Source of the DNA: Bacteroidia bacterium
Lineage (GTDB): Bacteria; Bacteroidota; Bacteroidia; Chitinophagales; JAUHXS01
Direction of reading: 5' to 3'
Length of the DNA: 60,741 nt
Assembly: GCA_030426955.1 (NCBI GenBank)
Contig: JAUHXS010000014.1
Span: 1 to 60,741, forward strand
This document shows positions 43,983 through 55,737 of this stretch, in pieces. The translations under genes and the position numbers were made by a program. The stretch's first letter is position 1. Each line of letters opens with the position of its first letter. The notes under the pieces were generated by a model, which had not been told where the DNA came from, searched no databases, and was given only the letters and a program-made list of their open reading frames with translations.

Positions 43983-46865
43983 ATGTTACGCAAAGCGCTA
44001 TTTTTATTAGTTTCTATCGTTTTTTTCTCTCTCCATAGCCGTGCAACACACGTAATGGGAGGGGAGCTTTCTTATAGATATTTGGGTGCTGGAAACTATG
44101 AGTTTACCTTGAAGCTATACAGAAATTGCTCTCCAGGAGCATACACTGCGCCCAATAGCGCTCGGATAAGGATTAAAGATTCTATAAATACAATTTTCAA
44201 CCCACTATTGCCTAGAATATCAGTTGTAAATATAACTGATAGTACCAATGATGATCCCTGCTTAATTGTACCACCAGATGTATGTGTAGAGGAATATACT
44301 TATCAAGATGTTTTTAATTTGCCCAATATTCCTGAGGATGGACTACACGTTACCTATTCGTTGAGAAATAGAAACTGGAGTATAGCCAATGTTGTAACTC
44401 CAGGAGATATTAATATGATACTATACGAACGCATACCAGATACAAGCATTGCAATTGATAACAATACGCCTGTTTTTGATAATTTTCCACCCACCTTTAT
44501 TTGTGTAAACGAGCAGTTAAACTTTGATCATTCTGCAACAGATCCCGATGGTGATTCACTTTATTATGAATTGTATCATCCGTATGGTGCCGCTGATGGG
44601 AACTATGGCAATAGCGATAACTTTGACCCAACTGTTACAGCTGGAACACCAGCACTACCCCTAATACCGTGGAATGCGCCATATGGAACGAATGATCCTA
44701 TGGGAGGAGTGCCGTTAACAATTGACCAAAATGGCATTTTGAAAGCAATCCCCAACTTAGTTGGGCAATATGTGGTAGGTATTATGGTTTCTGAATACAG
44801 GAATGGTGTTTTAATTGGTCGACACTTAAAAGACTTTCAGTTTAATGTAACAGATTGTGAGCGAGTTAAAGCAAGAATAAAGACTGGCTTTGGAGCGCTA
44901 ATAGGATGTGGAAATACCGTTACTTTTCCAAATAAAAGTTTAGGAGCCTCAGATTTTTTATGGGATTTTGGAGATCCCTTAAATCCAAATGATACCTCAT
45001 CTGAAATTAGCCCGACATATACCTACTCAGATACTGGAAGCTATGAAGTATTATTAGTTGCAGACCCAGGGTCTGTCTGTGCAGATAGTATAACTGTTAA
45101 CGTGACACTCAATCCTCCAATGCAGCCAGCTTTTTCTGCAAATGATGTTTGTGATGGATACCCCGTTCAATTCAGTGATAATACAGTTGCTGGGAGTGGT
45201 AGTTTTATAGTGTTAAGGCAATGGGATTTTGGAGATGGCAGTTATTCAACGTCAGCCAACCCCTCTCACCTTTATGCTGATTCAGGAGTATATACAATTA
45301 GACTTATTGTAACTTCAAATCTAGGTTGTGTAGATTCCATATCTAAAACAATAAATGTTAAATCTGCACCGACTGCAGAATTCTATGTTGATACAACGGC
45401 GGGATGTGACCCCTTGACAATAAACTTTACAGATAGCTCTAAAAATGGAGACAATTACAGGTGGGATCTAGGTGATGGGACTATTTGGGATACGATGGCT
45501 GCAAATTTTTCTTTTGTGTATACATATAATGGTGGTGAGGCTTATTTAGCACAATTAATAGTAGCTAATTTGTCAACAGGGTGTTTGGATACCGCGAGTG
45601 TATTGATCAATAACTATCCCAATCCCAAAGCGGAGTTTAATACCCTGAATCCAGTAGGCTGTAATCCGCTTGACGTTGATTTTAGTAATATCTCAGAACG
45701 AGCATCAAACTATCATTGGGATTTTGGTTGGGATTTAGGCAATGGAGACACATCTACTGATAGTGTGCCACCTCCAGTGCGATATACTAATACAGGTTCT
45801 GTAGATTCTATATACATCGTTACGTTAATCGTGACATCGTCTTTTGGCTGTGCTGCGGATACCACTTATGATACCATCACCGTAAAGCCTGTTCCTACTG
45901 CCCAAACACTTCAAGATGATTCCATTTGTGAAGGAGAAGTCGTAAATATAACAGCGCTTGATGAAGAGGAAGGTGCAATTTATCAGTGGATTCCTAGTGA
46001 CTATCTAGATAATGATACCATTGCAAACCCTAGTTCAAAGCCTGATACGACAGTGTCATATATTGTACTAAAGATGACCCACTTTAACTGTGTCGATACA
46101 ACGTATAAGACAATTGTTGTGCAACCCAGTCCTGAGCTATCTGTCATGAATGATACTAGTATTTGTAAAGGGGAGACCCTCCAATTGCTAACTTCTGTGG
46201 ATGCTGGAGCATACTTTTGGGAGCCAGAAGAATTACTAGAAGATGCCTTTGTAGAAGATCCAGTAACAATTCCTCTGAGCGAAAAGATAAATAACTTTAT
46301 TGTAACAGTGACTGGTAGTAATGGATGTGAAAGTGTTGATACAATTGTAGTTGAAGTGAACTTCCCAGTTGTCGATGCAGGAGAAGAAAAGGTTATTTTA
46401 AGGGGCGAATCCGTTAAGCTACTTGCAGTTTCTGAGCCAGGTGTGACTTATGAATGGGAGCCAGATAAATATCTAAATAACATTAATATTCCTGATCCTA
46501 TTGCGACACCACCTCAAACAATCATGTATTATGTACAAGTAGAGAAAGGTGGTTGTTTTAATACTGATTCGGTATTAGTTAGGGTTATTGATATGGTTTT
46601 AGATGTTCCGAATGCCTTTTCTCCTGATGGTGATGGTGTAAACGATTTTATTTATGCAGAAGGACGAGATGTTGTGTCATTTGACTTTAGGATTTTTGAT
46701 CGATGGGGAAATTTGGTTTTTCAAACTCACAATCTAGAACAAGGATGGGATGGCCGGTATAACGGCAGATTAATGGATATGGATACCTATGCTTTCTATG
46801 CCATTGCAAAGAGTGAGTTGGATACAAAAATTGTGAAGAAGGGAAATATAAGCTTGTTGAGGTAA
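43983..46865 (+). CDS. Large PKD-repeat protein with T9SS type B sorting domain
   Basis: The protein has 960 aa with a signal peptide to about residue 21. At least four PKD units are visible by their WDFGDG-type motifs (FLWDFGDP, RQWDFGDGSYS, YRWDLGDGT, YHWDFGWDLGNGD), followed by Ig-like repeats (YQWIPSDYLDND, YFWEPEELLED, YEWEPDKYLNN). The C-terminal NAFSPDGDGVNDFIYAEG ... WDGRYNGRLMDMDTYAFYAI is the gliding-motility/CHU_C type B signal. It is probably a surface adhesin. A PorP/SprF gene follows 16 bp downstream, the usual partner arrangement. Confidence 0.9.
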   Translation: MLRKALFLLVSIVFFSLHSRATHVMGGELSYRYLGAGNYEFTLKLYRNCSPGAYTAPNSARIRIKDSINTIFNPLLPRISVVNITDSTNDDPCLIVPPDVCVEEYTYQDVFNLPNIPEDGLHVTYSLRNRNWSIANVVTPGDINMILYERIPDTSIAIDNNTPVFDNFPPTFICVNEQLNFDHSATDPDGDSLYYELYHPYGAADGNYGNSDNFDPTVTAGTPALPLIPWNAPYGTNDPMGGVPLTIDQNGILKAIPNLVGQYVVGIMVSEYRNGVLIGRHLKDFQFNVTDCERVKARIKTGFGALIGCGNTVTFPNKSLGASDFLWDFGDPLNPNDTSSEISPTYTYSDTGSYEVLLVADPGSVCADSITVNVTLNPPMQPAFSANDVCDGYPVQFSDNTVAGSGSFIVLRQWDFGDGSYSTSANPSHLYADSGVYTIRLIVTSNLGCVDSISKTINVKSAPTAEFYVDTTAGCDPLTINFTDSSKNGDNYRWDLGDGTIWDTMAANFSFVYTYNGGEAYLAQLIVANLSTGCLDTASVLINNYPNPKAEFNTLNPVGCNPLDVDFSNISERASNYHWDFGWDLGNGDTSTDSVPPPVRYTNTGSVDSIYIVTLIVTSSFGCAADTTYDTITVKPVPTAQTLQDDSICEGEVVNITALDEEEGAIYQWIPSDYLDNDTIANPSSKPDTTVSYIVLKMTHFNCVDTTYKTIVVQPSPELSVMNDTSICKGETLQLLTSVDAGAYFWEPEELLEDAFVEDPVTIPLSEKINNFIVTVTGSNGCESVDTIVVEVNFPVVDAGEEKVILRGESVKLLAVSEPGVTYEWEPDKYLNNINIPDPIATPPQTIMYYVQVEKGGCFNTDSVLVRVIDMVLDVPNAFSPDGDGVNDFIYAEGRDVVSFDFRIFDRWGNLVFQTHNLEQGWDGRYNGRLMDMDTYAFYAIAKSELDTKIVKKGNISLLR

Positions 46866-46881
46866 TGTTAAATTATAAATT

Positions 46882-47961
46882 TTGAATATTGGATTCAAAT
46901 ATGGTTCTGGTAAGCAGCTTTTCAAAATAACATTAATAGTATTTTGTTTTTGGAATAGTATGGTCTATTCTCAAAATATGCGTTTTTCTTCCTACGAAAT
47001 GGCTCCGATGATGGTCAATCCCTCTTTGACTGGAAATATTGAAACATTGTTCAGAGCTAGCGCAAGCTACAGAAGTCAATGGGCTGTTGCTTTAAGTCCA
47101 TTCACGACAGGCCAAGTTGCATTTGATGGTAATATTAGACCTAACATATTAACAACTGACGAAATAGGTATTGGAGGATATTTAGCATATGATAAATCCG
47201 GAGATGGGAACTTATCAGTGATTCGCTTTATGCCTTCTACTGCATTTCATAAGTCGTTTGATGAGATGGGGAAATATAGTCTAGGAGTAGGAGTACAAGC
47301 AGGTTTTATTCAAAAAAGTATTGATTTTGAAAATTTAATTTTTCCAGACCAGTATAATGGAACTTCCTTTGATAAAGAAATTCAAACACAGCAAGTTTAT
47401 CAAGTATCTTCCTTTTGGAATTTTGATGCTGGAGTTGGAGTGGTATGGCAGTATAAAGAAAAGGGCAAATCATTATCAAAAATTCAATATGTGCCTCCTC
47501 TTGGAGAAATAATAGAAGCTCAAGTTGGATTTGCCGTTAACCAAATCAATAGGTCTTATGAAACCTTCTTGTTTAACCATGGAAATCGATTGAGATCAAG
47601 AACGGTCATACATGGTCATATGGTCTACAAGCACACTTCTCCTATAAGCTTTATTCCAAGTATATTACTAATGAAGCAATATAATGTTTGGGAGGTTCAA
47701 ATAGGAGGAGATGTCGAATATGGTTTTATTAACCATATTGGTGAGATAGCATTAACTTCAGGGGTGCGCTATCGTCATAGAGATGCATTTCTATTGCGAT
47801 TCGGGATGCGCTATAATGACTACACGATGCAATTAGGCTATGATTTGAATCATTCCTCACTGATTAGGGCAACAAAAAGCGTTGGAGCTATAGAGCTACA
47901 TGTAAAGCGAGAATGGCCTAAGAGGGGTAAGGTGAATTGCCCTAAGTTCCACAAGAATTAG
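46882..47961 (+). CDS. PorP/SprF-family T9SS membrane protein
   Basis: The protein has 359 aa. After the signal peptide the motif MRFSSYEMAPMMVNPSLTG and ASYRSQWAVALSPFTT is the PorP/SprF hallmark; the rest is a 14-strand-type barrel with IGIGGYLAYDKSGDGNL and LRFGMRYNDYTMQLGYDLNHSSL. Members attach or hold type B-signal adhesins at the surface. The start is a TTG at 46882. It is coupled to the large PKD protein upstream and converges with the next gene 2 bp away. Confidence 0.9.
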   Translation: MNIGFKYGSGKQLFKITLIVFCFWNSMVYSQNMRFSSYEMAPMMVNPSLTGNIETLFRASASYRSQWAVALSPFTTGQVAFDGNIRPNILTTDEIGIGGYLAYDKSGDGNLSVIRFMPSTAFHKSFDEMGKYSLGVGVQAGFIQKSIDFENLIFPDQYNGTSFDKEIQTQQVYQVSSFWNFDAGVGVVWQYKEKGKSLSKIQYVPPLGEIIEAQVGFAVNQINRSYETFLFNHGNRLRSRTVIHGHMVYKHTSPISFIPSILLMKQYNVWEVQIGGDVEYGFINHIGEIALTSGVRYRHRDAFLLRFGMRYNDYTMQLGYDLNHSSLIRATKSVGAIELHVKREWPKRGKVNCPKFHKN

Positions 47962-47963
47962 TA

Positions 47964-50087
47964 TTACCTTATTAACTCTAATACCCCTTCTTGCCTCAGT
48001 ATTTCGCCGTCAAATGCTTTAACAGAGGCATATACAAAATAAGTGCCAATTTCGGCATCAACTTTTCCTCTATGGGTTCCATCCCAGGTATCAGTAATGT
48101 TTTCCCCTAAAAAAACTCGCTTTCCCCATCTGTTGAATATCTCATATTGTATTAACTCAGTCGAAGCTTCTGTTGTAATTAAGAAGAAGACGTCATTATC
48201 TCCGTCACCATTTGGTGTAAAAGCAGAGGGTATTTCAAGATACTTCTCGCATACTGTTATAGATATATTATCGTCTGTATAGCATCCCGTAGCAGGATCA
48301 GTAGCTCGGACAAAAACATCAAAGTTCTCTGTTGGGGTAGACTGAGGGCTTGGGCATAAGAAGCAGCTTAATTGTGGGATGTCTTGCCATTCATAAGTGA
48401 CACCGCCAACAGGAGGGTCGTTTAATGTAATAGAAGTTCCCAATAGGAGGCAACTTGGGTCTTCTAGGTCAAATTCAGGTCTAGGTATGACAAATATGCT
48501 TGTTGTTAAGCTATCTTTATTTCCGCATTCATCGATTACGATCATTTTATAAGTAGTATTTGTATCTGGTCTTACAAAATATCCATCATTGGTGCTATCT
48601 ATAAAACCGTCAGGAAACCACTGGTATTTATATGGGGGTACTCCGTAAATGCCCTCTGCAAATAATGTGTCTTCTTCTATTTGATGACAAATAGCGTTTG
48701 ATGGTGTAATGCTGAGAGCTTCTACTGTCAATCCTCTCATAATCATTATCCAAGGCTCATCAATTATTTGAATACAAGATGGGTTACATGTTCCAGGCTG
48801 ACCATCGGTTCTTCTAAGAAAGAGTGTGTATGTGATTTCATAAGGTTCGCAGGCAGGGGCAGGCACACAGGTTCCCAATTGTGCAAATATTGAGGTAGGT
48901 ACTGTTGTTGTACATCTTCCTTGACTATCTGGAGGAAATGGTGGGCCAGTTGGCTGTTGGCAAATAAAGTTTGCATTGCATCCTATGCCTCCAGTAGTTA
49001 AGTTGAAACCAAACTCAGCATCAGTGAATGTGCAGGGAGTGTCTATGTTTATTGTTACGTCAAATAGAATGTCCGTTATCGTTACTTCTGCAGGGGTGAG
49101 CATAGTGAAAGTATGTGGGCATCCAGCGCTACGAGATGAAAAAAGAGTCGTATCTACTATTGTATCTCTTGATTCTACCAATGGGTCAATGTAGATAGGG
49201 TATGATGTTTCTTCTGCATTTAGCCACTCTATCGGTATGAGCATTTGTAATGTATTTTCATCTGCTATTCTATAACTGATAGGAATACTGTTGAAGTTAT
49301 TGTCGTAAGCAAAGGCTTCATGTATTTTAAATACTTCTTTATCATCTTGGTCATGAATGATGATGTCATCAATAAAAGGAGTGGATGAAACAATATGGTT
49401 TATTTCTAGCGTGCTAGGAATGCTTATGTTGTCCTCGATAATAAGGTAGCCACTACCTGACAGTTCCATTTTGTTCTTTATAACAAAATTAGTCTTTGCT
49501 TTGCCATGACCGAAGTTAGTACGCATATCTATATGATCGAAAATATTTCTAACAACTAAACGTTTTTCAGCCATTTCGTGCCTTTTCCATTTTGCTGGAG
49601 CAATTTCTGTTGCTTGTTGACCGAAAGGTTGATGTAAGAGCCTTAAATTGTTGTTAAACTTTAATTCATCTTGACTGGTCAATGATATAAATCCTTTACC
49701 TAAGTCTATTTTAGATTTGATTTTGGTATTTTTAGAGGTATAAATATCTGGGTTTGCTGACTGTTCTAGTTTAGTGTCGATTGTTCGCCACCAACCATTC
49801 TCGTCTTTGTAATGTAGAGCACCCTTGGCTTGTTGTTTTATAAAACCTCGACCATCTGTACCAATCTCTATGTAGTATCTACTATCAACAGTACGTTTTG
49901 ATAGGTCTTCGACGCAGTCAAAACATCCGGTGTTATGAGGTAATACGCCAAACTCGGGATGATTGTAATATTCAGGTAGGTTGTATTGCTTTGCCAAGGC
50001 TAGGTATTCAGCAGATACAGTATTGGAAGCCTTGCCAATACTGAACGCAATAAGTATAAAAATGGAGATTATAAATGACTTTATCAT
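47964..50087 (-). CDS. Secreted protein with T9SS type B sorting domain
   Basis: The protein has 707 aa with a signal peptide to about residue 20. The N-terminal 280 residues form a beta-rich domain with CFDCVEDLSKRTVDSRYYIEI. A Cys-rich middle part (TPCTFTDAEFGFNLTTGGIGC) and an Ig-like unit follow. The C-terminus EIPSAFTPNGDGDNDVFFLIT ... WDGTHRGKVDAEIGTYFVYAS is the type B sorting signal. It is probably a surface-attached protein; target unknown. Confidence 0.85.
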   Translation of the reverse strand: MIKSFIISIFILIAFSIGKASNTVSAEYLALAKQYNLPEYYNHPEFGVLPHNTGCFDCVEDLSKRTVDSRYYIEIGTDGRGFIKQQAKGALHYKDENGWWRTIDTKLEQSANPDIYTSKNTKIKSKIDLGKGFISLTSQDELKFNNNLRLLHQPFGQQATEIAPAKWKRHEMAEKRLVVRNIFDHIDMRTNFGHGKAKTNFVIKNKMELSGSGYLIIEDNISIPSTLEINHIVSSTPFIDDIIIHDQDDKEVFKIHEAFAYDNNFNSIPISYRIADENTLQMLIPIEWLNAEETSYPIYIDPLVESRDTIVDTTLFSSRSAGCPHTFTMLTPAEVTITDILFDVTINIDTPCTFTDAEFGFNLTTGGIGCNANFICQQPTGPPFPPDSQGRCTTTVPTSIFAQLGTCVPAPACEPYEITYTLFLRRTDGQPGTCNPSCIQIIDEPWIMIMRGLTVEALSITPSNAICHQIEEDTLFAEGIYGVPPYKYQWFPDGFIDSTNDGYFVRPDTNTTYKMIVIDECGNKDSLTTSIFVIPRPEFDLEDPSCLLLGTSITLNDPPVGGVTYEWQDIPQLSCFLCPSPQSTPTENFDVFVRATDPATGCYTDDNISITVCEKYLEIPSAFTPNGDGDNDVFFLITTEASTELIQYEIFNRWGKRVFLGENITDTWDGTHRGKVDAEIGTYFVYASVKAFDGEILRQEGVLELIR

Positions 50088-50287: not shown

Positions 50288-51175
50288 ATGAGCAAATTAT
50301 ATGTATTAGCAATAGTGCTTTTTTTAAGCTGTTCACTTGTAGCTCAAGTTGATTCAGTCCAAAGCAATGATGTAAGCCAAGACACAATTAGTAACGCTCC
50401 GTCTGATGAGTTGCCTCAAGCTACAGGAGTGTCTGTTTCTCCTGCACATATTCATTTTTCGATTGAGCCAGGGGAAAGAGATGTGCGATATGTTACAATT
50501 AAGAATGCAACAGATAAAACCAATAAGTTTACTGTGAAGTTTAATGATTTTGATATGAATGGTAAAGGAAAAACGCCTTTTATAGAAGCAGGAGAAGGTG
50601 ACCATAGCCTTTCTCGGTGGATTAGTGTTAGTCCTACATTTATGGAGTTGGCTCCAGGAGAAAGCCAGAAAATCATGTTGACGCTTGACATACCTGATGA
50701 TAGCTTGGGTAGAAGAGCTGCATGGAGCATTATGATGATTGAGCAAGCTGAAGAGAAAAAGAAGCTTGATCCAGGAAGAGGAGGTGGTAATACAATGGCT
50801 TTTGGTATTGTCCCAACATTCGCTTTTGGTGTGTACTTATATCAAAACCCTCCTAATGTAGAGATCAATAAAGTCGAAATAATTGATTTTAAGTACTTAA
50901 AAGAAGATGATAAGAATCTTTTAACGATAGATGCAGAGAATGTGGGGGATGGCATATCATATTGCACACTTTATATAGAATTGACAAACTTAAGTACGGG
51001 AAAACAAGATAAACTTTTAGTAAAGCGTTTTACTATATTGCCAGAATTAATAAGAGATTTTTCCTTTCAAATTCCTGAGGAGTTTGGAATTGGAAAGTAT
51101 TCTGCGGTTGGGGTATTAGATTACGGTAGCTCGGAAGAGCTTCAGGCCGCAGAATTAGAGTTTGAAATAGAGTGA
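50288..51175 (+). CDS. PapD-like periplasmic chaperone of a fibre system
   Basis: The protein has 295 aa with a signal peptide to about residue 20. Residues 48-155 form an Ig-like domain with VSVSPAHIHFSIEPGERDV, RYVTIKNATDKTNKFTVKF and SPTFMELAPGESQKIMLTL, the strand pattern of fimbrial chaperones (COG3121); DDSLGRRAAWSIMMIEQ is like the RaaW region of PapD. A second Ig-like domain ends the chain. It leads a cluster with two secreted subunits and a large barrel, which supports the chaperone role. Confidence 0.65.
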   Translation: MSKLYVLAIVLFLSCSLVAQVDSVQSNDVSQDTISNAPSDELPQATGVSVSPAHIHFSIEPGERDVRYVTIKNATDKTNKFTVKFNDFDMNGKGKTPFIEAGEGDHSLSRWISVSPTFMELAPGESQKIMLTLDIPDDSLGRRAAWSIMMIEQAEEKKKLDPGRGGGNTMAFGIVPTFAFGVYLYQNPPNVEINKVEIIDFKYLKEDDKNLLTIDAENVGDGISYCTLYIELTNLSTGKQDKLLVKRFTILPELIRDFSFQIPEEFGIGKYSAVGVLDYGSSEELQAAELEFEIE

Positions 51176-51248
51176 CATAATTACGTGTAACAATGTTTCA
51201 GCTAGTCCGTATAACAACGGATAACTATTATTTAACTAAACTATAAAT

Positions 51249-52025
51249 ATGAAAAAGTTAAGTTTATCTTTTATAGTTGGAGTAGGTATGTTTGCAACTT
51301 CTTATGCACAATTGCAGGATGAGAAGGATGTAACTATAACTATGGACTTGCAACCTGTTTTACAGTTAGATATGTCCACCTCCAACCAACTGGAATTTGT
51401 ATTTGATGATATATCTGAGTACTATTCTGGGATTACACATTATGCAGCGACTATCCTTAAAATCAGTTCTACTGTAAGTTGGGATTTATATGCTGTGGGT
51501 CGTTCAAATGGAACCACTGCTGCTGGTATGTGGGATCAACAATTAGATTATGGAAGTAATAATCCTAATGCTATTGATCAAATTCCATTAAGTGCCGTAG
51601 AGTTAAGACAGTCTCAGGCTAATTCTGGAGATGGTGCTGCTGCTGGTGCTTTTTCTGATTACAGCCAAGCTTTTGCTACTACAGGTGCTGCCAATGCTGG
51701 AAATAGCTTATACGTTAATGGTGGTGCTATTACACCTCCATCTACTAACGATAAGTATATTGCAGGTCATGCAGGAACTTCTGGTACAGCTGGTCAGGAT
51801 TTTATTGCTGGTGGTAGTTATTTAACTCAAACTGGAACAACCAGTGATTACTACTATGCAATTGACTATAGAATTTTGCCTGATCTTCCGGCTATTTTTC
51901 CAAATGCAGCTAACGCAGCGGGTACTGCTTTTGTAGATATCGTAACTGCTAATGCAGCTGGAAACTATGCTGAACCTGGTGTTTACACTATGTATGTTCA
52001 GTATGTATTATTGGAAGACCAATAG
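51249..52025 (+). CDS. Secreted fibre-subunit-like protein 1
   Basis: The protein has 258 aa with a signal peptide cut near YAQ. Mature start KDVTITMDLQPVLQLDMSTSNQLEFVFDDISEYYSGI and end EPGVYTMYVQYVLLEDQ recall pilin/spore-coat-U type domains, whose last strand has GxY. The middle is Ala/Gly/Ser/Thr-rich. It shares its strand plan with the protein encoded at 52087, with which it is probably a paralogue. The perfect hairpin just after the gene would favour a high level of this subunit over the genes downstream. Confidence 0.55.
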   Translation: MKKLSLSFIVGVGMFATSYAQLQDEKDVTITMDLQPVLQLDMSTSNQLEFVFDDISEYYSGITHYAATILKISSTVSWDLYAVGRSNGTTAAGMWDQQLDYGSNNPNAIDQIPLSAVELRQSQANSGDGAAAGAFSDYSQAFATTGAANAGNSLYVNGGAITPPSTNDKYIAGHAGTSGTAGQDFIAGGSYLTQTGTTSDYYYAIDYRILPDLPAIFPNAANAAGTAFVDIVTANAAGNYAEPGVYTMYVQYVLLEDQ

Positions 52026-52041
52026 TATTGATTAAGATAAT

Positions 52042-52069
52042 ATATGAGATGGTAAACACCATCTCATAT
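52042..52069 (+). terminator. Intercistronic hairpin (attenuator or mRNA stabiliser)
   Basis: A perfect 12-bp inverted repeat (52042-52053 with 52058-52069, loop aaac) lies between the first subunit gene and the next. There is only a short T-run after it, so partial termination or protection of the upstream mRNA is likely rather than a full stop. Confidence 0.65.
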
Positions 52070-52086
52070 TTATCGATTTAATAGAG

Positions 52087-52737
52087 GTGCATAAGAATAA
52101 GTTTATTTTCTACACAAGAAATATTTCAAAATTGAAATTTCATCTCTTATTTTCTTTCTTTATTATTATCCCTTCTCTCTTAAAAGCCCAAATTCATTGT
52201 GGTACAGTAGAGTTTATACCTAACTCTCCGTTAACTCAAGATTTTACCTTTGATTCCTTTAATCAGTACTTAGGCGGAATAACATTCAACAATATTGGAC
52301 AATTAAGAATAAACGTTGAGGATAAAGCCATTGTTGACCCTGATTGCAGATGGTTTCTTACCATGGAAATTAGTAATTCTGGAGGAGGAACTCCAGCTGG
52401 AGAATGGGAGACCTTGGTTGTTTATGGAGGAGGTGCTGCAACCACCCCGCCAATTGATTTGCTTCAAATAAGACTTAGAAACGGATGTCAAACGTCTCCA
52501 ATTGACGGTCTATTTCAAACTTTTACAAACCATGGAGATGTTACCAATATTATAGCAGATGGCTTGGCAAGAAATGATGCTGGTAATTGCAACTTAAATG
52601 TAAATGGTCCTGGCGACTATCTAACAAATTATAACGAATATACCTTTACTATAGATGTTAGAATAAAGCCAAATTTTACGCTGAAGCCAGGCATCTATCA
52701 GCTAAGCGTTAAATTTCACTTAGAAGAACAAATGTAA
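52087..52737 (+). CDS. Secreted fibre-subunit-like protein 2
   Basis: The protein has 216 aa from a GTG at 52087, preceded by an AGAGG-like site; the signal peptide ends near KAQ (residue 35). TFDSFNQYLGGITFNNIGQLRINVED and YTFTIDVRIKPNFTLKPGIYQLSVKFHLEEQ align with the ends of the protein at 51249. Cysteines are present (HCGTVEF, CRWFL, GCQTS, GNC). The stop codon directly abuts the ATG of the usher-like gene, so the two are translationally coupled. Confidence 0.55.
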   Translation: MHKNKFIFYTRNISKLKFHLLFSFFIIIPSLLKAQIHCGTVEFIPNSPLTQDFTFDSFNQYLGGITFNNIGQLRINVEDKAIVDPDCRWFLTMEISNSGGGTPAGEWETLVVYGGGAATTPPIDLLQIRLRNGCQTSPIDGLFQTFTNHGDVTNIIADGLARNDAGNCNLNVNGPGDYLTNYNEYTFTIDVRIKPNFTLKPGIYQLSVKFHLEEQM

Positions 52738-55737
52738 ATGAATATTAAGTTTCAAAATATACATTTGATTCTTTGGTTATTGTTATTTATCAATGCCTCA
52801 AATATTTTTGCTCAGGCAGACTCCATAAGTGTTGATTCCGCTAATGTAAAACCTCAGCTTCGTTTTGACCCGTCACAGTCTGATACCCTGTTGTTTTATT
52901 TTAGAGAGTATGAGAAGGAAATAGGAAAAGGAGAGATCGCTTCTAATTTATTAGTAATTAAAAACTATAAATCAATCACCATTGATTTTACCATTAGTAT
53001 TGGTTCTCCTGCAAAATGGAAAAGTTTATATAACTCATCAAGAGAGTATTCTCTTGAACCTGAGGACTCTATTTTTATTCCTGTTCGATTAGTACCCAAT
53101 AGATTGCTCAATGCAAATATAAGATATGCTGTTAATGCACTACTCAAATCAACAGATGGTTCACTAGCTTACAATACAACTTTTTTTGGTACAACAAAGA
53201 AGGCAATCAAGTGGGAAGTAACACCCCTTGATGGAAATAGAATATATTTTAAAAATAATGAGACAGAAAAAGATTTTGCTGTAAATGTATTAAATACAGG
53301 AAACTTTGATCAGAAGATATTGATGGATGTCAACTCTTCTCAAGGAGATGCCATTTTATCAGATACCAATAATTCCATTTTAAAAGGAAAGCCAGCAGAG
53401 CTTTTCCTAAAACCCAATGAAGATACCACGCTCAATTATAAAGTAAAACTTACAAGGCAAATACGAAACTTTCGTACAGTTTCTATTGTGAATCATAAAC
53501 CTTTTTCAGCGCTAGAAGAGAGACGGTATAGCGTTTTTGTCAACTCCCATGAGGCGAATGGAGATCCTATTGGTAGAACCAGTAGAGGAACAAAAATTGA
53601 TTTCATTAAGCTTGCTAATGAACGAAAGTATAATCCTTATAGCGGTCCCACATTGCCGCTTATCGTACAAGCAAATGCGCAGAATTTACTGAGTAATTCC
53701 GTTTTTATGTCTGTTAATATGAGAGGTATCAAACGATTTGAAGATAATTCATCATTGAGGTATTTCTCTCAAATGAATTACAGCTCTTTATTTTATAATG
53801 GACAACAGGTAAATAACCTGCCTTGGTATGTTGGCTATTTTACAAAGAAGTATGAAATACAAGCTGGTCAGGTGAATGGGGGAGGAATAGGGGCTCAGTC
53901 GACAGGAAAAGGCTTAAGAGCAGACTATTATATTACACCATTAATGAAGTTTGGTGGGTTTTATCTTCGCAATCCAAGATTGTTTGGTCCGTTGTCTAGT
54001 GAGACCTTTGGTATTAACTATGAATGGGAATACCTAGAAAGTAGAAAGCTGTTTTTTAATGCTAGTAGGAATATAAATATTGGAACTAGGATTAACTCCA
54101 ATGTGCTAAGTGCGAGAACAAATATTAGAGTATTAAAAAAACATAACTTAAGTTTAATCGGAGCATTTAGTAATAGAGATAATAGAGCCTCTGGTACCAG
54201 TGTAATTCAAAATGGATTTTTAGCTGGGGTAAACTACTCTAGTCAATTCTTAGATAATGATTTGAGAACTAACCTTACTGCAAATTATAACTCAAGGTAT
54301 TTTAGTGGTGCTTCTAACGAGCGAATTTTAATTAATCATCGGACGAGTTACATCATTTCTGAAGCATGGCAGGTATTTATGGTCAACAATTACTTAGAAA
54401 ACCATAGATACCCCAATGATGTAAACTCAAGTCAAGCACCAAGCCTTTCGTATAATTATTTTAACAGATTGGTATTTACTAAGTCTACCCAATCAGGAGG
54501 AACCATTCAGCCAGGATTGTTTTATGATGTCGTTTATTTCTTTAATAATAATTTACACACAAGGGGACTGGTATTCCGATATAATAATTATGACTTTGCT
54601 AAAAATACCCTATTCAGCTTAGGAACAAGAACAGGGTATGGAAGATCCTATACTTATCCTGAACTGGGAGAGTTCTTTATCTTTGAGCTGACAACATTAT
54701 CTAGGTATAGAACTTTTACACTTAATACCAGATATTTGTATGGTCCAAACTCCAGTAGTTCTTTAATAACAGCTGTTGAAACTGGAACGACTCCACAAAC
54801 TTTGAGATTAGCGTTACAGAATCAATATTTATTTAAAAATACTAAATACCTTTTACAGACATCTGCAAACTATACCTTTAATAATAGATTCAATAACCAT
54901 ACTTTTAATATTATACCAGATTTATACTATTTCACTCCTTCAGGGTGGAGGTTTAACGTAAATATTAACTATGGTGTGTCATCCAATAATTTTAGAGCAG
55001 CAACAGAGAGTTTGAACTTCTTGCGACCAGCACCAACGGAAGAAACAGGGCCAACCATATATCATACATTTAACATTGGAGCTGGAGTAAGGAAGGAGTT
55101 TGGTATTCCTATTCCATTTGTAGAGCAATCAACACTCGATGTTAGTTTTGTCGCTTTCTATGATGAAAATGGTAATAAGAAAAAAGATCGTGATGAAACA
55201 GTAATTGAAAATGTTATTATTAAACTAGATGATTATGAAATTATTACAAATGAGCGAGGAGTTGCTACATTCTTAAACGTTCCTTTTGGAAAGCATGCCG
55301 CACTTATTGTGCCACTAGATGATATTGTTTCTGGATGGTTTCCTGATTTGCCAGATAGCATTGACATAACGAAGAAGGGGGACTTTCTTATTCCTTTTAC
55401 AAGAGGGATTAAGATTTTTGGAAATGTTTCGATAGACCGTGAAGAACTAGCAGCAGATGCTGATCAACCTTTTGATCTGAGTAATATCAAGATAACAGCA
55501 ACCAATGGTAAGGAGTATAAGACATTAACAGGCTTTGATGGAAGTTTTGAACTATATGTTCCAAACGGAACATATACTTTGACATTAGATGAAAATCTTG
55601 TAAACGACCGATTCCAGATAGCTCAAAATAACTTCAAAGTAGAGCTTTCAAATGATTTAGAAAGTATCTATGTCTCTTTTATGATTATTGAAAAAAGAAG
55701 AAAGGTTAATGTGAAAAAGTTTAGAAGTAAGTATTAA
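52738..55737 (+). CDS. Usher-like outer membrane barrel with Ig-like ends
   Basis: The protein has 999 aa with a signal peptide to about residue 26. Residues 30-270 are Ig-like (LRFDPSQSDTLLFYFREYEKE). Residues about 300-820 show regular amphipathic strands of a large beta-barrel (SSLRYFSQMNYSSLFYNGQ ... FNNHTFNIIPDLYYF). The end holds two carboxypeptidase-regulatory or SdrD-like domains (VSFVAFYDENGNKKKDRDE, then GFDGSFELYVPNGTYTLTL). The order resembles a chaperone-usher pore with N- and C-terminal domains, although direct sequence identity to PapC is not visible. It is encoded directly after two subunit genes and a chaperone gene. Confidence 0.55.
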   Translation: MNIKFQNIHLILWLLLFINASNIFAQADSISVDSANVKPQLRFDPSQSDTLLFYFREYEKEIGKGEIASNLLVIKNYKSITIDFTISIGSPAKWKSLYNSSREYSLEPEDSIFIPVRLVPNRLLNANIRYAVNALLKSTDGSLAYNTTFFGTTKKAIKWEVTPLDGNRIYFKNNETEKDFAVNVLNTGNFDQKILMDVNSSQGDAILSDTNNSILKGKPAELFLKPNEDTTLNYKVKLTRQIRNFRTVSIVNHKPFSALEERRYSVFVNSHEANGDPIGRTSRGTKIDFIKLANERKYNPYSGPTLPLIVQANAQNLLSNSVFMSVNMRGIKRFEDNSSLRYFSQMNYSSLFYNGQQVNNLPWYVGYFTKKYEIQAGQVNGGGIGAQSTGKGLRADYYITPLMKFGGFYLRNPRLFGPLSSETFGINYEWEYLESRKLFFNASRNINIGTRINSNVLSARTNIRVLKKHNLSLIGAFSNRDNRASGTSVIQNGFLAGVNYSSQFLDNDLRTNLTANYNSRYFSGASNERILINHRTSYIISEAWQVFMVNNYLENHRYPNDVNSSQAPSLSYNYFNRLVFTKSTQSGGTIQPGLFYDVVYFFNNNLHTRGLVFRYNNYDFAKNTLFSLGTRTGYGRSYTYPELGEFFIFELTTLSRYRTFTLNTRYLYGPNSSSSLITAVETGTTPQTLRLALQNQYLFKNTKYLLQTSANYTFNNRFNNHTFNIIPDLYYFTPSGWRFNVNINYGVSSNNFRAATESLNFLRPAPTEETGPTIYHTFNIGAGVRKEFGIPIPFVEQSTLDVSFVAFYDENGNKKKDRDETVIENVIIKLDDYEIITNERGVATFLNVPFGKHAALIVPLDDIVSGWFPDLPDSIDITKKGDFLIPFTRGIKIFGNVSIDREELAADADQPFDLSNIKITATNGKEYKTLTGFDGSFELYVPNGTYTLTLDENLVNDRFQIAQNNFKVELSNDLESIYVSFMIIEKRRKVNVKKFRSKY

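Follow-up and report, generated by a model that had tools for sequence, protein, structure and literature searches.

A probable, divergent chaperone-usher-type assembly system encoded by four genes in Bacteroidota

The DNA analysed here, a contig of 60,741 nucleotides from a Bacteroidia bacterium (JAUHXS010000014.1; hereafter the window), carries four consecutive genes on its forward strand at positions 50288-55737. An earlier note made from the sequence alone had read them as a chaperone-usher-like fibre locus, and the four-gene locus that it described is confirmed by the list of open reading frames (ORFs). The last two genes are joined stop to start as it had stated, with the TAA of gene 3 (52735-52737) directly abutting the gene 4 start codon, an ATG at 52738. 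We estimate a probability of roughly 0.8 that these genes encode a divergent chaperone-usher-type assembly system. The immunoglobulin (Ig)-like domains and other features of the four proteins, whose lengths are given in amino acids (aa), are as follows.

50288-51175, + strand: gene 1, candidate chaperone, 295 aa; signal peptide, Ig-like domains at about residues 46-190 and 194-295
51249-52025, + strand: gene 2, secreted subunit 1, 258 aa; N-terminal segment with hydrophobic residues in alternation (DVTITMDLQ), C-terminal end PGVYTMYVQYVLLEDQ
52087-52737, + strand: gene 3, secreted subunit 2, 216 aa, GTG start; kin of subunit 1 without its N-terminal segment, C-terminal end PGIYQLSVKFHLEEQM
52738-55737, + strand: gene 4, usher-like outer-membrane barrel, 999 aa; Ig-like domains at about residues 51-155 and 158-290, barrel at 313-788, C-terminal beta-sandwiches at about 800-900 and 915-986

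None of the four proteins reaches a Pfam or NCBIfam cut-off, and the family-model scan returned only a weak WxLIP_PGBD match for the chaperone and a weak SpaA match for the tail of the barrel. The description of gene 1 as a PapD-like chaperone is supported by its fold and by profile scores far above those of shuffled controls. In a structure model built from 29 relatives (pLDDT 82.4, pTM 0.72), the two Ig-like domains adopt the PapD arrangement, and both align with FimC, CfaA, CsuC and Caf1M; the resemblance to WxLIP and PapD likewise spans the two domains. A low-confidence or disordered F1-G1 loop (about residues 154-178) leads into a strand at 179-186, the candidate donor strand G1, which hhalign places on G1 of FimC; PapD-type chaperones in their free form are likewise built with a long F1-G1 loop ahead of the G1 strand. 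The best Foldseek matches are the WxLIP structures 9i1y and 9i25 from Enterococcus faecium (about 1e-11), followed by CfaA (1e-9) and then by Caf1M, CsuC and FimC (about 1e-8). The corresponding Z-scores in VIA are 15.9 for WxLIP, 14.0 for CfaA and 13.5 for FimC (3.9 Å, 186 residues). In profile comparisons by hhalign, the chaperone family is collinear with a set of ten chaperones from K-12 (96%, E 2.9e-9, score 67.8). As controls, the reversed profile scored 13.8, and shuffled profiles scored no higher than 24.8 (60 shuffles by column) or 42.4 (60 by block). In PapD, R8 and K112 form a cationic pair that holds the carboxylate of the subunit. The position of PapD R8 is occupied by Arg in 27 of the 29 relatives, whereas that of K112 is not conserved (H in 20, Q in 5, K in 3). 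Pfam PapD_N does not match the window chaperone and appears below threshold in three of the 29 relatives (best 0.01).

Genes 2 and 3 had been described as encoding two related secreted proteins, and their homology is clear in hhalign (99%, score 120.5, with none of 30 block shuffles above 60.5). The GxY noted in their last strand is also real, since it can be read in the two C-terminal ends listed above. Subunit 1 is 64-68% identical to its counterparts in the two nearest relatives, and the window subunits match the small subunits encoded next to the chaperone in distant loci (98%, score 91.9, with no control above 31.1). The two subunits differ at the N-terminus, where 36 residues (mature protein) precede the conserved Y..G motif in subunit 1 and 25 in subunit 2. 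Orthologues of subunit 2 in L016 and L089 have 21-25 residues there, the orthologous pairs in these loci show a difference of the same kind, and across loci the lengths are 30-43 residues in the first subunit class versus 17-25 in the second. The extra segment of subunit 1 may be a donor strand, and subunit 1 is likely the polymerising subunit. Subunit 2 is likely a tip or initiating subunit; that it and its orthologues lack the segment is as expected for a tip that has no donor strand to offer. In many relatives there is instead a large protein (about 320-515 aa) with a small-subunit domain as its last 140 residues (score 195.9, with no control above 109), an architecture like that of two-domain tip adhesins. 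The classical pilin end, with Gly at -14 (12 of 12 K-12 pilins used as controls) and a penultimate Tyr (11 of 12), is not found in the window subunits, whose Gly lies at -15 and whose residue at -2 is not Tyr. Profile scores of the subunits against K-12 pilins and against WxL proteins did not exceed controls, and for this reason the likeness between the last strands YTxTLTYTLT and YTGxINWNLS is regarded as a resemblance only.

The closeness of the chaperone to WxLIP raises an alternative, in which one or two subunits, exported or anchored by the barrel, form a small surface complex and no fibre, in a chaperone-assisted display without polymerisation that resembles the WxL/WxLIP clusters of Gram-positive bacteria. 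Besides the fold, the profiles favour this idea: the chaperone family scores 79.8 (97%) against the Enterococcus WxLIP profile, and controls do not exceed 41.2. The locus, moreover, has two subunit genes only, with no further subunit gene found elsewhere in the same genome, and in WxL clusters AlphaFold2 predicts that a hairpin strand of WxLIP completes the WxL sandwich, a relationship for which the word chaperone is not used (PMC10599100). However, the modelled chaperone ends in a beta-strand (residues 286-294) without a transmembrane helix, the subunits lack a WxL profile match, and the N-terminal segment is present in subunit 1 and missing from subunit 2. Relatives with up to five tandem near-identical subunits and a large tip-like protein would also suit a polymer. 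We consider display without polymerisation improbable, and chaperone-usher-type assembly is the reading that we prefer. As a separate observation, the profile relative in Enterococcus is the WxL-interacting protein of plasmids L191 and L194-L197.

The earlier note had seen in gene 4 a 999-aa barrel with Ig-like ends in an usher layout, and this is borne out by the structure model and by Foldseek. The model, built from 27 sequences (pLDDT 69.8, pTM 0.45), places 26 long strands at residues 313-788, compared with 24 in a classical usher. FimD (3rfz, 4.7e-13) and PapC (7lhg, 4.3e-11) head the Foldseek list over 805-863 columns, ahead of all other barrels, with TonB receptors following from 7.8e-7. 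The combination of an Ig-like N-terminus, a barrel and two C-terminal sandwiches finds a full-length Foldseek match in ushers only.

The gene set recurs, in the same or nearly the same order, in distant families and in Deinococcus, and the locus is therefore more than a chance arrangement. All four genes are kept in the nearest relative L016; L015, also among the nearest, has subunit 1 and the barrel, and ORF picking found no intact chaperone or subunit 2 there. An initial contig search with the single chaperone as query found nothing. The named scan yielded 75 loci, mostly from Chryseobacterium, with others in Flavobacterium, Arenibacter, Bizionia, Aequorivita, Pedobacter, Mucilaginibacter, Chitinophaga and Membranihabitans. 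The usual order is one to five subunits, the chaperone, the barrel and the large tip-like protein. Whether the genes stay together in relatives had been fixed beforehand as a point to examine: the chaperone-subunit-barrel set is conserved, with the barrel beside the chaperone in 73 of the 75 named loci (the remaining two are short contigs), and it extends to Deinococcus. Two Deinococcus plasmids carry the order subunit-chaperone-subunit-barrel (L192:4898-10644 and L193:4978-10580), all of these genes being annotated as hypothetical, and match the two profiles with E 7e-32 and 9e-17.

Of the 395 Bacteroidota genomes sampled, 82 contain chaperone homologues, a few of them doubtful. The matches in G318, G396 and G404 are stretches of about 40 residues in frames of 1,300-2,300 aa and probably represent other Ig domains. 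Phylum-wide barrel matches (153 of 395) mostly reflect C-terminal SdrD_B-like domains and were excluded from the members. Four Chryseobacterium loci (L113, L121, L133 and L149) have up to five tandem, near-identical subunit genes of 180-181 aa upstream of the chaperone, which may allow subunit variation. A sensor kinase and a regulator often come next after the tip-like gene; in many Flavobacteriia loci (L086, L088, L153-L170) this position holds three ORFs, one large and kinase-sized (about 915-930 aa), one kinase-like (244 aa) and one resembling a response regulator (211-215 aa), which perhaps have a controlling role.

A further branch of Bacteroidota loci (f44; 14 loci), with the same gene order and longer barrels, links the window-type system to classical ushers. 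The chaperone adjoins the barrel in all 14 loci and subunits lie alongside in nearly all. The f44 chaperones match window-type chaperones over their full length (99.4%, E 2.2e-21), and eight of the 14 show PapD_N below threshold (best 8.8e-4). The f44 barrels align with K-12 ushers from the first strands of the barrel through the plug region (89%, score 64.8, with no control above 40.3); on its own, the plug segment is too short to be scored. In the last 250 columns they align with barrels of the window type (score 95.7, with no control above 37.5). PF00577, the usher family, exceeds its cut-off in none of the 395 genomes; its only four traces, all sub-threshold, fall inside chaperone-linked f44 barrels. 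Gly at -14 and Tyr at -2 occur together in 26 of 28 f44 subunits, as in K-12 pilins, and one f44 subunit matches DUF4402 above the cut-off. Because of this bridge, the window-type system is best regarded as a far branch of the chaperone-usher kind, not as a chance look-alike. A separate feature of this branch, odd for an usher, is the peptidoglycan-binding Pfam domain SPOR in 10 of the 14 barrels (alignment A12, L202-L213; best 5.5e-23).

Several observations weigh against the chaperone-usher reading. The window chaperone has His at the R8 position and Tyr at the K112 position, the subunits do not score above controls with K-12 pilin profiles, and hhalign finds no significant match between window-type barrels and classical (K-12) ushers. 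Foldseek TM-scores for the barrel are low throughout, and the barrel model has no plug insertion, its inter-strand loops reaching 22 residues at most. VIA, in addition, gives its highest score to the 26-strand MtrB (Z 21.3, 423 residues), ahead of PapC (Z 17.4) and FimD (Z 17.1), with TonB receptors near FimD. What the model bears out is thus a large barrel laid out like an usher, not an exact 24-strand usher. A barrel predicted without a plug had been named beforehand as an outcome that would speak against the reading, and the model of this barrel shows that outcome, although f44 barrels can be aligned with ushers through the plug region. The rows listed in the VIA table include no plug-less usher, an absence that is uninformative. 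The second N-terminal Ig-like domain is a candidate for closing a plug-less pore.

The VIA ranking could also be taken to mean that gene 4 encodes an unrelated large-barrel exporter, whether MtrB-like, TonB-receptor-like or an accessory of the type IX secretion system (T9SS), that lies by chance beside Ig-fold proteins, and the neighbouring genes of T9SS biology (CHU_C and PorP/SprF) fit that idea. We consider it very unlikely, as the chaperone-barrel pair is conserved in distant families and in another phylum, the full-length domain layout is matched by ushers only, and the f44 bridge matches both PF00577 and K-12 ushers. The chaperone-usher reading is thus supported by the fold, by profile comparison with controls, by conserved synteny and by a bridging branch with traces of PF00577.

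Directly upstream of the locus, within the stretch 43983-50087, lie a gene for a CHU_C-type T9SS cargo protein (47964-50087, - strand) and a PorP/SprF gene (46882-47961, + strand). These are typical T9SS surroundings and are absent beside the distant loci. The genome carrying the locus has no PF00577 usher, and no second copy of the chaperone was found in it.

For the system as a whole, we infer strand donation, strand exchange, transport through the barrel and a fibre in the following form. The two secreted subunits would enter the periplasm via Sec, where the PapD/WxLIP-like chaperone would lend its G1 strand to complete the open sandwich of each subunit and carry the subunit to the outer-membrane barrel. 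The N-terminal Ig-like domains of the barrel may receive the chaperone-subunit complex; the subunit would then pass the pore while the N-terminal segment of a neighbour takes the place of the chaperone strand. The product could be a thin surface fibre or a short display structure, in which subunit 1 polymerises and the tip is formed by subunit 2, which has no N-terminal segment, or in relatives by the large protein.

Chaperone-usher-type pili have barely been recognised so far in Bacteroidota and Deinococcus. A 2016 survey of outer-membrane pores recorded ushers in Proteobacteria, Spirochaetae, Cyanobacteria and Deinococcus/Thermus and did not list Bacteroidetes (PMC4827864). The view in the earlier note that classical systems are rare in this phylum agrees with that survey and with our count of PF00577. 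However, chaperone homologues are present in 82 of the same 395 genomes. Standard family models miss the system entirely, and Bacteroidota genomes have therefore been read as lacking chaperone-usher pili. No published description of the system was found in the open-licence literature. If our reading is true, these bacteria have an extra surface fibre pathway alongside FimA/Mfa1 pili and T9SS, their barrels offer a plug-less usher for studying pore gating, and PapD-type chaperones are linked to Gram-positive WxLIP proteins.

Among known systems, type V (FimA/Mfa1) pili are surface fibres of Bacteroidota, but their subunits are protease-processed lipoproteins that use neither chaperone nor usher, and general family scans of the locus turned up no type V pilus components. 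Classical pili (FimC/FimD, PapD/PapC; PF00345, PF00577) share with the locus a two-domain chaperone of PapD fold, adjacent genes, a subunit end formed by an amphipathic strand headed by Gly (-15 here, -14 in K-12) and a barrel with an N-terminal and two C-terminal beta-sandwich domains. They differ in that the window proteins reach no Pfam cut-off, K112 is not conserved, the penultimate Tyr is missing from the window subunits, and the barrel model has 26 strands and two Ig domains at the N-terminus but lacks a plug. CS1/CFA-type (class 5) and alternative systems (CfaA, CooC, EcpC) provide the closest Gram-negative chaperone fold in CfaA, and the barrel of a distant relative (L098) has a sub-threshold CooC_C match; window-type barrels, by contrast, have no significant hhalign match to EcpC, and the EcpB match is weak.

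The WxL/WxLIP clusters of Bacillota (DUF916-DUF3324) supply the best structural match and a clear profile relative of the chaperone, and likewise include small secreted proteins whose last strand resembles that of the subunits here (GDYTGKINWNLSTTP in WxL). Unlike the present locus, they have no outer-membrane barrel, and WxLIP is membrane-anchored whereas our chaperone has no helix; the subunits here, moreover, carry neither a WxL motif nor a matching profile. A shared donor-strand ancestry of WxLIP and these chaperones is plausible. More tentatively, plug-less ushers with a chaperone intermediate between PapD and WxLIP may extend across the phylum, and donor-strand chaperoning in diderms and monoderms may be homologous, the usher being an add-on.

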